This document shows, piece after piece, positions 31,704-38,978 of a DNA stretch of 41,673 nt (positions are counted from its first letter, which is position 1; each line of letters begins with the position of its first letter). The notes below the pieces were generated by a model. It saw only the letters and a program-made list of their open reading frames with translations. It did no database searches and was not told the DNA's origin. The stretch lies in assembly GCA_017482385.1 (NCBI GenBank), contig JAFUNI010000011.1:1-41673 (forward strand), written 5' to 3'. This DNA comes from Oscillospiraceae bacterium (GTDB taxonomy: Bacteria; Bacillota; Clostridia; Oscillospirales; Oscillospiraceae). The translations under genes were made by a program, and so were the position numbers.

Positions 31704-33966
<2,263 letters not shown>

Positions 33967-33968
33967 AA

Positions 33969-35477
33969 ATGGATTCTATGGAGCAAAAGCAGCAAGCGGT
34001 GCTGACTGTGGCGAAAGCTTTTTATGACCGTGGCGTTTACACCCAGTATGACCAGCGGAGTATGGACCGTCTGATCCAGGTCACACCCCGGCGCAGAAAG
34101 TATCTGCCTCCGGAGGCCGGTAACAGTCAGTATACCCATTTTTTGGATTGCTCCGGCTATATGAGCGCTATCTATTTGACTGCTTTTGGCTATGAGCTGC
34201 CCTCCGATCTGACCTGGATCATGGTGGATCAGATGGAGCCCCGGAAATATCTGTATAACCTGACCCACGAGGAGACCTTTGCAGATATTCAGCGGGTCAA
34301 GGATGAGATGTATGCGATTTTGCAGCCTGGTGATCTGATCACCTGGCAGCGGTATACGGGCAGCGGTCATATCGTTATGTACCTGGGTGAGGGGCGCTAC
34401 ACCGAATGCACAACCCCGCCCAAAATGAAAAACAGCTATAATTACGAAGAATGCAAGAACCAGCTCTATGAGCGCGGCCTGTGGTGGCGTGACACATTGG
34501 ATGTGAAATTCCCCCTGACCCAGGAAGATTGGGAGAACAACAAGGGTTTGTTCCACGAAAACATTAAGCGTTTCTCGATTCACCGGCCTCTGGAAATTGT
34601 GGGAGATATCCTGCCCCAGGCAAAGCTGCGTATGGGGAGCGCCAAGGATTTGTGGTGCGCGGTGGAAAACTCCGCCCCCGGCTTGCGCCAGGCTTATCCC
34701 GGCGGTAAAGTAGATTATACCGTGATCGTCCGCAATCAAAATGCGGAGGAAAAGGACATCGCTGTGACCTTTGCTGCGCCTGCCGGTACGACTTTTGCCG
34801 ATGAGGGCAAGGCGGAATTTGCCTTGCAGGCCGGCGAAGAAAAGCGCGTGACTTTCTCTGTCACTGTGGACGGCGGCAACACCGCTATCCAGTTAGAAGG
34901 CCCCAAGGTGACGGTCAATGATTTGATCATTTATGCCCATCCGGTGCTGTTGGGTCGGCAGATGACAGATAGTCAGTGGGAAACTGTTAAGGAAACCGCT
35001 TTGGCAGAACTGGCTAAGGGCGAGACCTCTGTTGCCGCTGCTGCCAAGGCTTATGGACGATTGGGTATTCAAATAGACCCGGTGCAAAAGCATTACAGCT
35101 GGGGCAAATTCTGCTACCACGATACCCCCGTCGGCGATGTGATTTCCCGCCGCCCCCAAAAGCCCTTTGAGGACTTGGCGGTCTACACCGGCTTTGGCGG
35201 TAAGAATGTGATCACCCCGGAAATGGCCGCCGGCAGCTATGTGCGCACTACATTTATTTCTGCTGCTGATCTGCTTCCCGGTGATGTGATCCTTTGTCTG
35301 GAGGACAGCTTTGGAGATGTTGCCTACAGCGCCTTCTTTGACGGGGAAAAGCTTATCGGCTGCTTTGAAGCGGGTGGAAAGACCCGCAGCATTTCCGGTG
35401 AAGAGATGGATACATTTATAGACAGTCTGTTTGGCCGCTTTGCGTTCCTGCTTTTGCGGCCTGCACAGGGATTGTGA
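33969..35477 (+). CDS. NlpC/P60-like two-lobed protein of unknown role, inside the atp operon
   Basis: 502 aa, no signal peptide or membrane helix, so cytosolic. The N-terminal part resembles NlpC/P60: FLDCSGYMSAIYLTAFG with C61, then LQPGDLITWQ (118-127) and SGHIVMYLGEGRYTEC with H134. The middle (about 235-315) looks like a beta-sandwich of the NEW3/DUF11 kind (YPGGKVDYTVIVRN, LQAGEEKRVTFSVTV). The C-terminal part (about 430-500) repeats the first lobe's layout: LLPGDVILCLE, then VAYSAFFDGEKLIGCFE. It has Ala where the histidine should be, so this lobe would be inactive. It starts 2 nt after atpD with GAGGAG in the atpD end, and it shows no obvious change in base or codon use. I do not recognise a named family for the whole protein. 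The substrate is unknown: peptide cross-links are the classic NlpC/P60 target, but a cytosolic enzyme must act on something else or on recycled peptides. Confidence 0.72.
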   Translation: MDSMEQKQQAVLTVAKAFYDRGVYTQYDQRSMDRLIQVTPRRRKYLPPEAGNSQYTHFLDCSGYMSAIYLTAFGYELPSDLTWIMVDQMEPRKYLYNLTHEETFADIQRVKDEMYAILQPGDLITWQRYTGSGHIVMYLGEGRYTECTTPPKMKNSYNYEECKNQLYERGLWWRDTLDVKFPLTQEDWENNKGLFHENIKRFSIHRPLEIVGDILPQAKLRMGSAKDLWCAVENSAPGLRQAYPGGKVDYTVIVRNQNAEEKDIAVTFAAPAGTTFADEGKAEFALQAGEEKRVTFSVTVDGGNTAIQLEGPKVTVNDLIIYAHPVLLGRQMTDSQWETVKETALAELAKGETSVAAAAKAYGRLGIQIDPVQKHYSWGKFCYHDTPVGDVISRRPQKPFEDLAVYTGFGGKNVITPEMAAGSYVRTTFISAADLLPGDVILCLEDSFGDVAYSAFFDGEKLIGCFEAGGKTRSISGEEMDTFIDSLFGRFAFLLLRPAQGL

Positions 35478-35484
35478 GGATAGT

Positions 35485-36288
35485 ATGGATCTTTACTTGT
35501 TGAAAGACGGAAACCCGGAGGCAGTAGAACCTGCCCACGGTACCTATATCACCTTTGACAGCCACGGCAGCCGCCTGTTCGGCAGACTTCTGCTGCCGGA
35601 TTTCTTCGACAAGGAAAGCCGCTGCCCTGTGGTGCTGATGCTCCACGGTCATCCCGGCGGCGATAAGAACTTAGACATCGGTGAGGCGTTGCGGGCTAAC
35701 GGCTTTGCAGTGGCTGTGATGTCCTATCGGGGTGTTTGGGGCAGCCATGGCAACTATTTGCTGTCCCACAACATTGAGGATGTGATCTCCGCGGTAGACT
35801 TCCTGCGGGAAAAGGCGGAGGTGTATCGTTTAGATCCGGAGAAGGTCTTCCTGTTCGGACACAGTATGGGCGGCTTCTCTGCGCTGAACGCTATGGCGTG
35901 CGGTCTGAAGGTCAGCGGCGCAGTGCTGATGGCACCTTACGATGCCGGATATCAGTATCTGTATAACCGCCCCAATTTCGACAGCGTAATGGCCTGCAAG
36001 GAAAGCGGTTATTTTAACCTTGCTTCGGAAAATGCCCTGGAAGAGGATGCGGGGGAAAATGCAGAAAAGTGGAGCTTCCGCAATCTGATGGCTTCCTGGG
36101 ATAAGCGTGTGCCTATGGCATTCATCGACGGCGTCAAGGATACAACCTCTACAAAAATGGGTCCGCTGGTGGAAGAAATGAAGAAGGCCGGATTTGATGC
36201 AACCTGCCATCTGCTGGAGGACGGCCATATGTTCCCCATGCACCGGGCTACCATTGCCCGTATCGCAATCGGGCATTTTAGCAAGTAA
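35485..36288 (+). CDS. Alpha/beta hydrolase (serine esterase/peptidase-like) inside the atp operon
   Basis: 267 aa. The oxyanion motif is HGHPGG (54-59), the nucleophile elbow is FGHSMGGFS with S127, and the last catalytic histidine is H248 in EDGHMFPMH. An acidic residue in FIDGVKDT (about 215-222) could complete the triad. It has the compact core of acyl-peptidase/esterase relatives without a propeller domain and without signal peptide. The ATG at 35485 is 7 nt after the preceding stop, with GTGAGGA as ribosome binding site. It is sandwiched between the NlpC/P60-like gene and atpC. The substrate is not deducible. Confidence 0.85.
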   Translation: MDLYLLKDGNPEAVEPAHGTYITFDSHGSRLFGRLLLPDFFDKESRCPVVLMLHGHPGGDKNLDIGEALRANGFAVAVMSYRGVWGSHGNYLLSHNIEDVISAVDFLREKAEVYRLDPEKVFLFGHSMGGFSALNAMACGLKVSGAVLMAPYDAGYQYLYNRPNFDSVMACKESGYFNLASENALEEDAGENAEKWSFRNLMASWDKRVPMAFIDGVKDTTSTKMGPLVEEMKKAGFDATCHLLEDGHMFPMHRATIARIAIGHFSK

Positions 36289-36306
36289 TTTGAAAGGGGA
36301 GACCCT

Positions 36307-36717
36307 ATGAACACCTTTTCTTTGAAAATTGTAACCTCCGACGGCCTGCAGTTTGAAGGTCAGGCGGAGGAACTGATCGTCCGCGCAGTCAGCGGCGATT
36401 TAGGTATTTTGGCCGGGCATATGAACTGCGTTGCTCCCTTGGGAATGGGTATGGCCACGGTGAAGATCGATGGGGAAAAGCGCTATGGCGCTTGTATCGG
36501 CGGTATGGTAACCGTACTGGACGGCAGCGTGAAGTTAGTGCCCACTACCTTTGAATGGGCGGATCAAATCGATGTCGCCCGGGCTCGAGCCTCCGAGGAA
36601 CGGGCTAAGGAGATCCTTGCAGATAAAACCTCCAGCAACACGGATATTCATTTGGCAGAAGCCCGTTTGAAGCGTGCGTTGATCCGTCAAAGCGTGGCGG
36701 CATACAAGCCGAGATAA
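36307..36717 (+). CDS. atpC: ATP synthase F1 subunit epsilon
   Basis: 136 aa. The N-terminal beta-sandwich begins FSLKIVTSDGLQFEGQAEEL, with GDLGILAGHMNCVAPLG (about 30-46). The C-terminal two-helix domain (ARARASEERAKEIL, AEARLKRALIRQS), which can inhibit ATP hydrolysis, is present. GAAAGGGGAG precedes the start. It is separated from atpD by two foreign-looking genes (2.3 kb) yet lies only 18 nt after the second of them, so it still belongs to the same transcript. Confidence 0.93.
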   Translation: MNTFSLKIVTSDGLQFEGQAEELIVRAVSGDLGILAGHMNCVAPLGMGMATVKIDGEKRYGACIGGMVTVLDGSVKLVPTTFEWADQIDVARARASEERAKEILADKTSSNTDIHLAEARLKRALIRQSVAAYKPR

Positions 36718-36729
36718 AGGAGATAGATT

Positions 36730-37503
36730 ATGTTTGGTATTCGATTGAAATGGCTGGGCTGCGCCTGCTTTGAGATGGATTTTGACGGCCTGCACGTGGT
36801 CAGCGACCCCTGGATCACCGTCAACGAAAAGAATGACCTGACCTGGGAGGATGTGGAAAAGTGTGACTATATCACCCTGACCCACTCCCACAGCGATCAC
36901 ATTAGGGATATTCCTGCTCTGATGGAAAAATTTCCTGCCTACCTGATGTGCGGTGAGCAGACAGCTCTGCCTATGATGAAGTGGGCCAATGTGAATCCTA
37001 TGCGGGTCTACCCGATGAGCGCCAATTTGGAACTGGATATGGATAAGGTGAAGATCAAGGCGCTCTACGGCCGCCACGGCCCGCTGCCCGGCACCGGTCT
37101 GGAGCGAATTGAGAAATTGAAAGCAAGTCCCTTCTACGGACAAAGCGAAGTGCTGACAGAACTGGGCATTTTGGGCGATTTTGAATATCGGAATTTCCTG
37201 TACACAACTCCCAATGGCACCAAGATGCTGATTTGGGGCAATAAGATTGCCCGTCCCGACCAGCGGAATATGCTGAAGGCAGAGGGCGCGGATATTGGCA
37301 TCATCCAGGTCACCGGCACAAATAAGGCCGAGGATATGGCGGCAGCCTGCAAGGAGATGGGCTGCAAGGTGGTTATTCCTCACCATATCGACTATCCCGG
37401 CGACTATATGCGCCAGACCAATGCCCTCAAAGATGCTCTGGCAGAGATTGCTCCGGAGATCCGGTTCATCCTGCCTGAATACAACAAGTGGATCGAATTA
37501 TAA
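36730..37503 (+). CDS. Metallo-beta-lactamase-fold hydrolase (UlaG-like)
   Basis: 257 aa. The metal motif THSHSDH (H52, H54, D56, H57) and a later VVIPHHIDYPGD with metal-binding histidines fit the MBL fold of the UlaG/L-ascorbate lactonase group or a nuclease-type relative. No signal peptide is seen. AAAGGAG lies 12 nt after the atpC stop, and an intrinsic terminator follows the gene directly, so it is the last cistron of the atp transcript. Function unknown beyond a metal-dependent hydrolase. Confidence 0.85.
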   Translation: MFGIRLKWLGCACFEMDFDGLHVVSDPWITVNEKNDLTWEDVEKCDYITLTHSHSDHIRDIPALMEKFPAYLMCGEQTALPMMKWANVNPMRVYPMSANLELDMDKVKIKALYGRHGPLPGTGLERIEKLKASPFYGQSEVLTELGILGDFEYRNFLYTTPNGTKMLIWGNKIARPDQRNMLKAEGADIGIIQVTGTNKAEDMAAACKEMGCKVVIPHHIDYPGDYMRQTNALKDALAEIAPEIRFILPEYNKWIEL

Positions 37504-37506
37504 GAC

Positions 37507-37540
37507 AAAAACGGCAACGAAAAATCGTTGCCGTTTTTCT
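37507..37540 (+). terminator. Intrinsic terminator of the ATP synthase transcript
   Basis: A perfect 14-bp stem AAAAACGGCAACGA/TCGTTGCCGTTTTT with an AAAA loop, ending in TTTTTCTGTTTT. It begins 4 nt after the stop codon of the MBL-fold gene. Confidence 0.95.
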
Positions 37541-37619: not shown

Positions 37620-38978
37620 ATGAAACTGACAGACCAAAAGCCGCTACTATTTACCAATAAGGCGTTGGCGGCAATTGTGATTCCGGAGATGCTGTCCGGC
37701 GTTTTGGCTATTGTGGCGGGGCTTGTGGACTCGGTCATGGTATCTGCTGCCGGCGAGGCGGCAGTGAGCGCGGTTTCGCTGGTGGATACGGTCAATCTGC
37801 TGTTTATCACAGCCTTTACCGGTATGGCAAACGGCGGTAGTGTGATCACCTCTCAGTATGTGGGCAGCAGGAATTATGAGAAGGCCCGCATCAGCGCCAA
37901 TCAGCTTTTGTACTTAGCAACGGCTGTGGCAACGGGCTTGATGGCTGTTCTGCTTTGCTTCCGGGAGCCGGTTCTGCGGTTGGTGTACGGCCAGCTGGAA
38001 CAGGATGTGTTCCAAAATGCCGTTACCTACTTTTGGATAACCCTCTTGGGCTTTCCCTTCTTTGCTATGGGCGCATCTTCTACTGCGGTGCTGCGGTCTG
38101 TGGGCAAAAACCGCCAGGCAGTGTCTACGGCCATTGCCTATAATGTCCTCAATGTGATCGGCAATGCCATTTTGATCTACGGTTTCCATATGGGTGTGGC
38201 AGGCGCTGCCATTTCTACCACTGTTAGCCGGGTGATTTATGCAGCGATCGGTTTGTGGTTTGCTCACAATAAATCCTTGCAGGCGCATTTTGAGGATGTG
38301 TTGAAGTTCCGGCTGGATCATGACATTCTGCGCCGGGTGTTCCGGATCGGTATCGCCAACGGAACGGAAAACAGCCTGTTCCACGTGGGCAAGGTGCTGA
38401 TCTCCGGCCTGCTTGCCACCTTTGGCACGGCTGCCATTGCGGCTTATTCTGCTTCCTACACAATCAACAATATCGGCTGGGTGATCGTCAGCGCTTTCAG
38501 TACAGTGATGCTGCCGGTGGTTGGACAATGTGTGGGCGCAGGAGAAGTGAAGCAGGCAAAGCTGAATATGAAGAAGCTGGTGGGCGCAGCAACGGTTGTT
38601 CTGGCGGTGCTGTTTGCCGGTATCTACTTCTTGCGGGGCAGCTTGGTACACCTCTATGATTTTGAGGCAGAGACCCTCGAATTGGCAGCCTACTACACCG
38701 GAGTGGGCGCAATCGCATCTCTGGTGAGCCTGTATTCGTTCTCCTTTGTGCCGGCCACCGGTTTCCGGGCGGCGGGAGATATTCGGTTTACGATGATCTT
38801 CTCCAGTGCCTGCATGTTTGTATTCCGTGTGGGTTTCAGCTTTGTGGCCTATTGGATAAAGCCGGAGCTTGGCCCTCTGTGCATTTACATCGGTATGTGG
38901 GCAGACTGGTTTGTCCGTACTGTCGTCAATATTATCCGCTACCGCAGCGGCAAATGGATCCACAAGAGATTGGTATAA
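37620..38978 (+). CDS. MATE family efflux transporter
   Basis: A 452-aa polytopic protein with about 12 helices in two six-helix halves. The N-terminal helix has IVIPEMLSGVLAIVAGLVDSVMVSAAGEAAVSAV (read as family-typical blocks), and GGSVITSQYVGSRNYEKAR follows helix 2. Exports drugs or metabolites in exchange for Na+ or H+; no substrate can be named. AGGAGGG precedes the ATG. It forms a monocistronic unit with its own promoter and a terminator. Confidence 0.92.
   Translation: MKLTDQKPLLFTNKALAAIVIPEMLSGVLAIVAGLVDSVMVSAAGEAAVSAVSLVDTVNLLFITAFTGMANGGSVITSQYVGSRNYEKARISANQLLYLATAVATGLMAVLLCFREPVLRLVYGQLEQDVFQNAVTYFWITLLGFPFFAMGASSTAVLRSVGKNRQAVSTAIAYNVLNVIGNAILIYGFHMGVAGAAISTTVSRVIYAAIGLWFAHNKSLQAHFEDVLKFRLDHDILRRVFRIGIANGTENSLFHVGKVLISGLLATFGTAAIAAYSASYTINNIGWVIVSAFSTVMLPVVGQCVGAGEVKQAKLNMKKLVGAATVVLAVLFAGIYFLRGSLVHLYDFEAETLELAAYYTGVGAIASLVSLYSFSFVPATGFRAAGDIRFTMIFSSACMFVFRVGFSFVAYWIKPELGPLCIYIGMWADWFVRTVVNIIRYRSGKWIHKRLV

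Follow-up and report, generated by a model that had tools for sequence, protein, structure and literature searches.

Two hydrolase genes between atpD and atpC in the ATP synthase operon of an Oscillospiraceae bacterium, and their probable stepwise origin

Gene content and layout of the operon

We describe an ATP synthase operon in which two unrelated hydrolase genes lie between atpD and atpC, the genes for the F1 beta and F1 epsilon subunits, and in which a further hydrolase gene follows atpC. The operon belongs to an Oscillospiraceae bacterium (assembly GCA_017482385.1, here G000; 2.39 Mb in 35 contigs), and the window that we analysed, 41,673 nt long, is the entire contig JAFUNI010000011.1 (G000:C32). 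Comparison with related genomes suggests that the additional genes probably arrived recently and in steps, as passengers in the 3' part of the operon.

Along the window the order is recD (reverse strand), an ATPase_gene1-like gene, atpI, atpB, atpE, atpF, atpH, atpA, atpG, atpD, the gene of an NlpC/P60 protein, that of an alpha/beta hydrolase, atpC, the gene of a metallo-beta-lactamase (MBL)-fold protein, a terminator and a MATE gene, where recD, atpB, E, F, H, A, G and MATE were identified by eye from the translations of open reading frames (ORFs). The ATPase_gene1-like gene and atpI through atpD stand in their usual order, and the first-pass annotation of this DNA was right to call the operon otherwise normal. 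From atpD to the terminator, the features of the window described below lie on the forward strand. The product of atpD (32569 to 33966; 465 aa, ending in KHKTEEK before a TAA stop) matches TIGR01039 with 836.8 bits against a cut-off of 462.85, and that of atpC (36307 to 36717; 136 aa) matches PF02823 with 57.7 bits and TIGR01216 with 74 bits (cut-off 67.25), and is the sole PF02823 (epsilon) match in the genome; judged by these profiles, both are true synthase subunits.

The first inserted gene (33969 to 35477) encodes a 502-aa protein with an NlpC/P60 domain (PF00877, 34.8 bits, cut-off 23), and the second (35485 to 36288) a 267-aa alpha/beta hydrolase that exceeds the cut-offs of the Pfam families BD-FAE and Hydrolase_4 (PF20434, 44.5 bits; PF12146, 43.6 bits). 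The spacings of atpD to the NlpC gene, of the NlpC gene to the hydrolase gene and of the latter to atpC are exactly 2, 7 and 18 nt, as originally annotated; the range given then began at 33967, 2 nt ahead of the NlpC start codon, and left the MBL gene outside. The 257-aa MBL-fold metallohydrolase is encoded at 36730 to 37503 (PF13483, 44.1 bits, cut-off 24), and a single intrinsic terminator, found by pattern scan at 37507 to 37538, ends the transcription unit, in agreement with the earlier description. A ribosome-binding site could be recognised by inspection before each of these starts, as had been claimed: GAGGAG within the last codons of atpD for the NlpC gene, TGAGGA across the NlpC stop for the hydrolase gene, GAAAGGGGAGA upstream of atpC and AAAGGAGA upstream of the MBL gene. 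No promoter- or terminator-like site was found on the forward strand between 33966 and 37507 in a pattern scan whose total counts were near those of shuffled sequence, which makes this weak evidence, and Rfam gave no match at the gathering threshold between 26900 and 41673. From the spacing, the common strand and the absent internal signals, it is likely that the pair and the operon share one transcript, as the first-pass annotation proposed. In composition the three non-atp genes (GC 0.52-0.54; GC at third codon positions, GC3, 0.62-0.67) fall inside the range of the atp genes (GC 0.50-0.57, GC3 0.49-0.70).

The atpD-atpC junction in related genomes

Among the 136 genomes of the genus set (G000 included), G127 is the only one besides G000 with a close homologue of the NlpC protein, at 95% identity; weak matches of 26-35% occur in four more congeners (G117, G128, G129 and G141). 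G127 carries the same gene pair at the same place between atpD and atpC, and both of its junctions agree with those of G000. On the sequences compared, this recurrence in a second genome is more than chance.

Everywhere else that we could measure it, the junction is tight. The distance between the ends of the atpD and atpC matches, taken from match coordinates among the matches listed, was obtained in 78 genomes of the genus (56 of the 136 had no match or lay outside the matches listed, and G099 and G111 each gave a single merged match); it is at most 26 nt in 76 of 76 congeners, against 2343 nt in G000 and G127. The family set comprised 200 genomes, 137 of them with a match, and in other genera the two genes are adjacent, at most 101 nt apart, in all 51 genomes with both ends present among the matches listed (26 pairs and 25 single merged matches chosen by eye). 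The first-pass annotation had proposed that conservation of the inserted gene order in several genera would support a functional module, and these 51 genomes speak against such conservation. It had also named, as evidence against the module, close relatives with adjacent atpD and atpC and with the inserted genes elsewhere: the former do exist, whereas no congener was found to carry a close copy of the NlpC gene at another locus. As a separate observation, G047:C76 and G048:C201 hold a second, divergent atpD-atpC copy beside a normal one, with an atpD part 62-65% identical to that of the window.

Exact junctions were read in 33 congeners without the insert. The two genes overlap in 29 of these, by 4 nt in 26 and by 1 nt in 3, and are separated by 0-2 nt in three others (G001, G046 and G045); G141 alone has a 13-nt spacer with a ribosome-binding site of its own. 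The empty site was read directly in G141, G041, G051, G120, G121 and G137. The junction of G141 reads GCAAATAATTGAAAGGGGAAGCCCTATG, whereas the left junction of G000 reads GAGAAATAA, followed by AAATGG of the NlpC gene, and its right junction reads AAGTAATTTGAAAGGGGAGACCCTATG. The left edge of the insertion is the atpD stop codon TAA (33964 to 33966), where the empty site of G141 reads GCAAATAATTGAAAGGGG, and the right edge (36286 to 36306) consists of the TAA stop of the hydrolase gene and then the old spacer, common to G141, with the retained atpC ribosome-binding site, such that TAA is present on both sides of the inserted pair. In a tree of atpD from 33 genomes (G040 and G024, with short atpD, were left out), G000 and G127 are sisters with support of 100/99 and G141 branches next (100/100), and the nearest other members of the clade, G041, G051, G121, G137 and G120, have overlapping genes. 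The position of G000 and G127 within the sampled congeners, in a tree that included no outgroup genus, gives no support to an acquisition of the entire operon from a different genus.

Between G000 and G127, the NlpC gene has a ratio of nonsynonymous to synonymous divergence (dN/dS) of 0.129, from 63.8 synonymous against 32.2 nonsynonymous differences, and the hydrolase gene one of 0.117, from 26.8 against 12.2. For comparison, the ratio is 0.086 for atpC and 0.013 for atpD, and the low values of the pair show that both inserted genes are under functional constraint. Their dS values (0.22 for NlpC, 0.17 for the hydrolase) are like those of the neighbours atpC (0.28) and atpD (0.14), which fits one shared insertion and genes that have been passed on together, under constraint, ever since the two species diverged. 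Nor is the pair purely a product of chance, the other reading offered by the first-pass annotation, as both of its genes are under purifying selection.

That the arrangement is an assembly artefact or neutral debris might be suspected, given that G127 is a metagenome assembly, that the window genome is in 35 contigs and that the MBL gene follows atpC in one genome only. We consider this extremely unlikely: the genomes of two species concur in the pair and in both of its junctions, the frames are open and constrained, and the spacing and ribosome-binding sites are clean. A second alternative is that the insertion acts on the synthase, in that atpC, uncoupled from atpD, would lower epsilon relative to beta and alter the inhibition of ATP hydrolysis, with the inserted proteins of secondary importance. 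The overlap in 29 of 33 insert-free congeners, its loss in G141 and the 2.3 kb that separate atpC from atpD in G000 and G127 speak for such an effect; against it, G141 is uncoupled without any inserted gene, the atpC ribosome-binding site is kept, so output may be unchanged, and both inserted proteins are under purifying selection, unlike a mere spacer. We regard this alternative as improbable.

The patchy occurrence of the genes, and the distant homologues that they have in other families, could also be read as the trace of mobile-element cargo (a transposon, an integron cassette or a phage moron) with decayed ends. Yet none of the repeats of at least 14 nt between 33700 and 37700 (12 direct families and 14 inverted pairs) has copies at both insertion edges, the composition is host-like, and no recombinase was recognised by eye among the neighbours; to this extent the first-pass annotation, which saw no transposon, repeat or base-composition shift, is borne out. 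Pattern scans of viral contigs, which find close relatives only, detected none for any of the three proteins, and the NlpC protein had no relative in phages or plasmids, among which no search was made for the hydrolase or the MBL protein. We rejected this candidate for want of ends, of a recombinase visible by eye and of viral relatives, and hold it to be very unlikely.

Two repeat-like features were seen in the operons of relatives. On the reverse strand of G127 (L078), the atpG-atpD spacer is about 190 nt long and rich in short palindromes such as CCCCTTCGGGGC, whereas the corresponding spacer of the window (32547 to 32568) measures 22 nt; the G127 counterpart amounts to a repeat-like insertion in the same operon. 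In G041 (L079, reverse strand), a palindromic intergenic repeat of the GTGGCAATCTCC type lies between atpC and MATE, and none of the four 12-mers sought occurs in the window.

The downstream end of the operon differs between the sister species. In G127, inspection shows a terminator-like hairpin after atpC, and then MATE; no MBL match was found in the 16 kb around the operon, the remainder of that genome not having been searched, and none follows atpC in G141, G041 or G051. The absence of the MBL gene after atpC in G127 makes it look like a separate event, which on these comparisons was probably a gain in the lineage of the window; a loss in G127 is possible, and a gain is the simpler account. 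The MATE gene beyond the terminator (37620 to 38978) has a dS of 0.70 against G127, as compared with 0.05-0.28 for the 12 other genes compared, and this high value suggests that it was replaced by recombination.

The encoded proteins and their relatives elsewhere

The NlpC/P60 domain of the first inserted protein spans residues 58-153 (34140 to 34427), with C61, H134 and E146 at the three catalytic positions. PF00877 matched 16 of 17 rows of our alignment, that of the window included (E 0.01). C61 and H134 are kept in all 16 rows that cover them, and the third position holds Glu in the window and G127, Asp in G387 and in a protein from a sheep-rectum metagenome-assembled genome (MAG), and His in the other 12 of 16 rows, among them the fragment from G395. 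An immunoglobulin (Ig)-like domain follows at residues 226-330 (34644 to 34958; a FixG_C match under the cut-off, and DUF11 in 10 of 17 aligned relatives), and profile-profile comparison revealed a degenerate second NlpC-like repeat without the catalytic Cys and His at residues 431-464 (35259 to 35360): the N-terminal and C-terminal parts match with a probability of 90.7% over 33 columns, against 0.6% for the N-terminal and Ig parts. A structure model built from the 17-row alignment was good (predicted local distance difference test, pLDDT, 85.3; predicted template modelling score, pTM, 0.85), whereas an earlier model from four rows was poor (pLDDT 56.3). Fold searches were silent on the NlpC part; the Ig-like domain filled the PDB lists, and the viral list held weak, mixed matches.

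Longer proteins in both the genus and the order show the same architecture of NlpC domain, Ig-like domain and C-terminal repeat. Members of this NlpC/P60-Ig clade, such as a 540-aa lipoprotein-like protein encoded at G000:C14, differ from the window protein in having a lipoprotein-type N-terminus (in the two that were read) and His at the third catalytic position, and share 18-23% identity with it; the window protein has no hydrophobic N-terminus, whereas its 540-aa paralogue has one. Long relatives are also found at 4733-10238 of L084 (G000:C35), where two tandem frames of 911 and 912 aa each contain NlpC-like and Ig-like parts.

Among better-known enzymes, the protein resembles the YkfC-type NlpC/P60 endopeptidases, gamma-D-Glu-L-diamino acid endopeptidases that serve in the recycling of cell-wall peptides (PMC2954226), in its NlpC/P60 domain, its Cys-His pair and its lack of an apparent secretion signal, and one of its homologues adjoins peptide-transporter genes. 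It differs from YkfC in the Ig-like domain, the degenerate second repeat and the Glu at the third catalytic position; the SH3b domains that precede the NlpC domain in YkfC have no recognisable counterpart, with no Pfam SH3 match at E 1 and only 57 residues ahead of the domain match. According to PMC2954226, YkfC recognises gamma-D-Glu through Tyr226 and other residues. The counterpart of Tyr226 appears to be Glu49, which lies 11 positions ahead of the Asp in Asp-Cys and is conserved in all 16 rows; this placement is by spacing and not by superposition. The comparison of YkfC residues further gives D80 or L81 as a counterpart, depending on the gap.

Across the order (394 genomes), NlpC homologues of about 45% identity occur in two genomes. 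That of G387 (44-45%) adjoins genes for an alanine dehydrogenase, an amidohydrolase and an MmgE/PrpD protein, and that of G395 an ornithine-cyclodeaminase-family gene; the homologue from the sheep-rectum MAG (50-51%) has as neighbours a SIS-domain protein, a family-5 solute-binding protein and two oligopeptide-transport-type permeases. By gene content, these three neighbourhoods point to the scavenging of amino acids and peptides, with no tie to the ATP synthase. In G387 the hydrolase found only a weak match (E 4e-4), G395 was not among the hydrolase matches, and neither genome had an MBL match; the NlpC and hydrolase genes were not found together anywhere in the order search.

The alpha/beta hydrolase has no hydrophobic N-terminus and keeps its nucleophile elbow, GHSMGG (GxSxG), in three of three rows. 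Its best homologues across the order are 31-39% identical, and in the 61 genomes of the genus searched for the hydrolase and MBL proteins the hydrolase matches other than that of the window were weak (best E 4e-9, 30%); a homologue in G236 has no NlpC-like neighbour in the ORF list. The HxHxDH ligands of the MBL protein are likewise kept in three of three rows. The UPF0173 metal-dependent hydrolases (PDB 3x2x, 6hrg, 7e3v) are MBL-fold relatives by sequence with HxHxDH in common, although the window protein scores 53.5 bits against NF001911, under the NCBIfam cut-off of 144. Homologues of 40-44% identity occur in three genomes of the order, as compared with 32% for the best within the 61 genomes of the genus; that of G320 lies among genes of DHDPS-family, FAD-oxidoreductase and Fe-ADH type, and the single scanned neighbour of that in G416 had no match.

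The first-pass annotation had suggested that the three hydrolases could form a metabolic module linked to the energy state of the cell, such as one for peptide or cell-wall fragment recycling; they might, for instance, act together to recycle cell-wall peptides at times of plentiful energy, in a process coupled to the ATP synthase or to energy state. The common strand, the tight spacing without internal signals and the purifying selection on the pair are all compatible with joint action, as are the NlpC homologues beside peptide-uptake and amino-acid genes, and a Chlamydia NlpC/P60 enzyme that recycles peptidoglycan peptides (PMC9928106) provides a precedent. A module of this kind would, though, require conservation that was not found: as far as read, the pair occupies this site in two sister species only, none of the 51 genomes of other genera has such an insertion (among the matches listed), the MBL gene looks like a separate event and is missing at this place in G127, its G320 homologue keeps company of another kind, and homologues of the three genes were never together in the loci examined. 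We consequently rejected the module as the leading explanation and think it unlikely. Highly improbable, in our estimation, is a combined effect in which, with atpC displaced and the two hydrolases on its message, a single transcript would govern both the amount of the inhibitory epsilon subunit and the degradation of peptides taken up by the cell; if true, nutrient recycling and ATP-synthase inhibition would change together.

Origin of the insertion and its implications

The best explanation, and in our view a probable one, is that passenger genes entered the 3' part of the ATP synthase operon recently and step by step. Comparison establishes the arrangement in each relative, and if these arrangements are read as gains, the overlap of atpD and atpC would first have been lost in the clade of G141, G127 and G000, leaving a short spacer with an atpC ribosome-binding site of its own; the NlpC/P60-hydrolase pair would then have entered at the atpD stop in G127 and G000 with that ribosome-binding site intact, and the MBL gene would have been gained separately, between atpC and the terminator, in G000 alone. 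The route was probably illegitimate recombination, perhaps by way of the TAA on both sides. Once in place, the pair would be transcribed from the atp promoter, with its translation coupled to that of atpD. The atp promoter is strong and growth-linked, and fixation may have come about through products that are useful when made during growth, not through any action on the synthase. The NlpC-type protein may act in the cytosol as an amidase or peptidase on peptides that the cell imports, possibly, though not demonstrably, cell-wall peptides, and the hydrolase an esterase or amidase at the same or a neighbouring step. The inserted genes are probably selected passengers on the atp message, with a part in cytosolic peptide hydrolysis.

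Several points weigh against this account. The searches revealed no donor locus that holds the pair, which makes its arrival as a unit, or by any transfer, a supposition, and the host-like composition gives no pointer to a foreign source. Two species are few, and dN/dS is silent on what is selected; moreover, the junction was covered in 80 of the 136 genomes of the genus, with 56 outside. G001, G046 and G045 lost the overlap without an insertion, such that overlap loss alone is insufficient. As to substrate, the three other NlpC neighbourhoods differ among themselves, and the apparent Glu49 in place of Tyr226 weakens the case for a cell-wall peptide, which is possible but not indicated.

Operon growth by insertion is as such already known: in the life-cycle of operons that Price, Arkin and Alm reportedly described in 2006, unrelated genes join a pre-existing operon in the same orientation and are expressed from its promoter. 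That work appears among the references of PMC3845653. The present case shares the unrelated, same-strand genes in an existing operon, and is unlike general operon growth in its site, a junction at which the genes overlap in most insert-free congeners, and in the survival of likely intermediates in relatives. A literature search, based on listings without going through the texts, recognised no published account of such an insertion.

Insertions between atpD and atpC appear rare, with two in 78 genomes of the genus, both fitting one event, and none in 51 genomes of other genera, among the matches listed. Given that the likely steps (overlap, spacer, two-gene insertion and end gene) are alive in relatives, the order of operon growth becomes readable: the overlap seems to have been lost before the other changes, and that loss may have opened the site. 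The case also shows that a gene can sit within a core operon without having the same function, which calls for caution in annotation by guilt by association.

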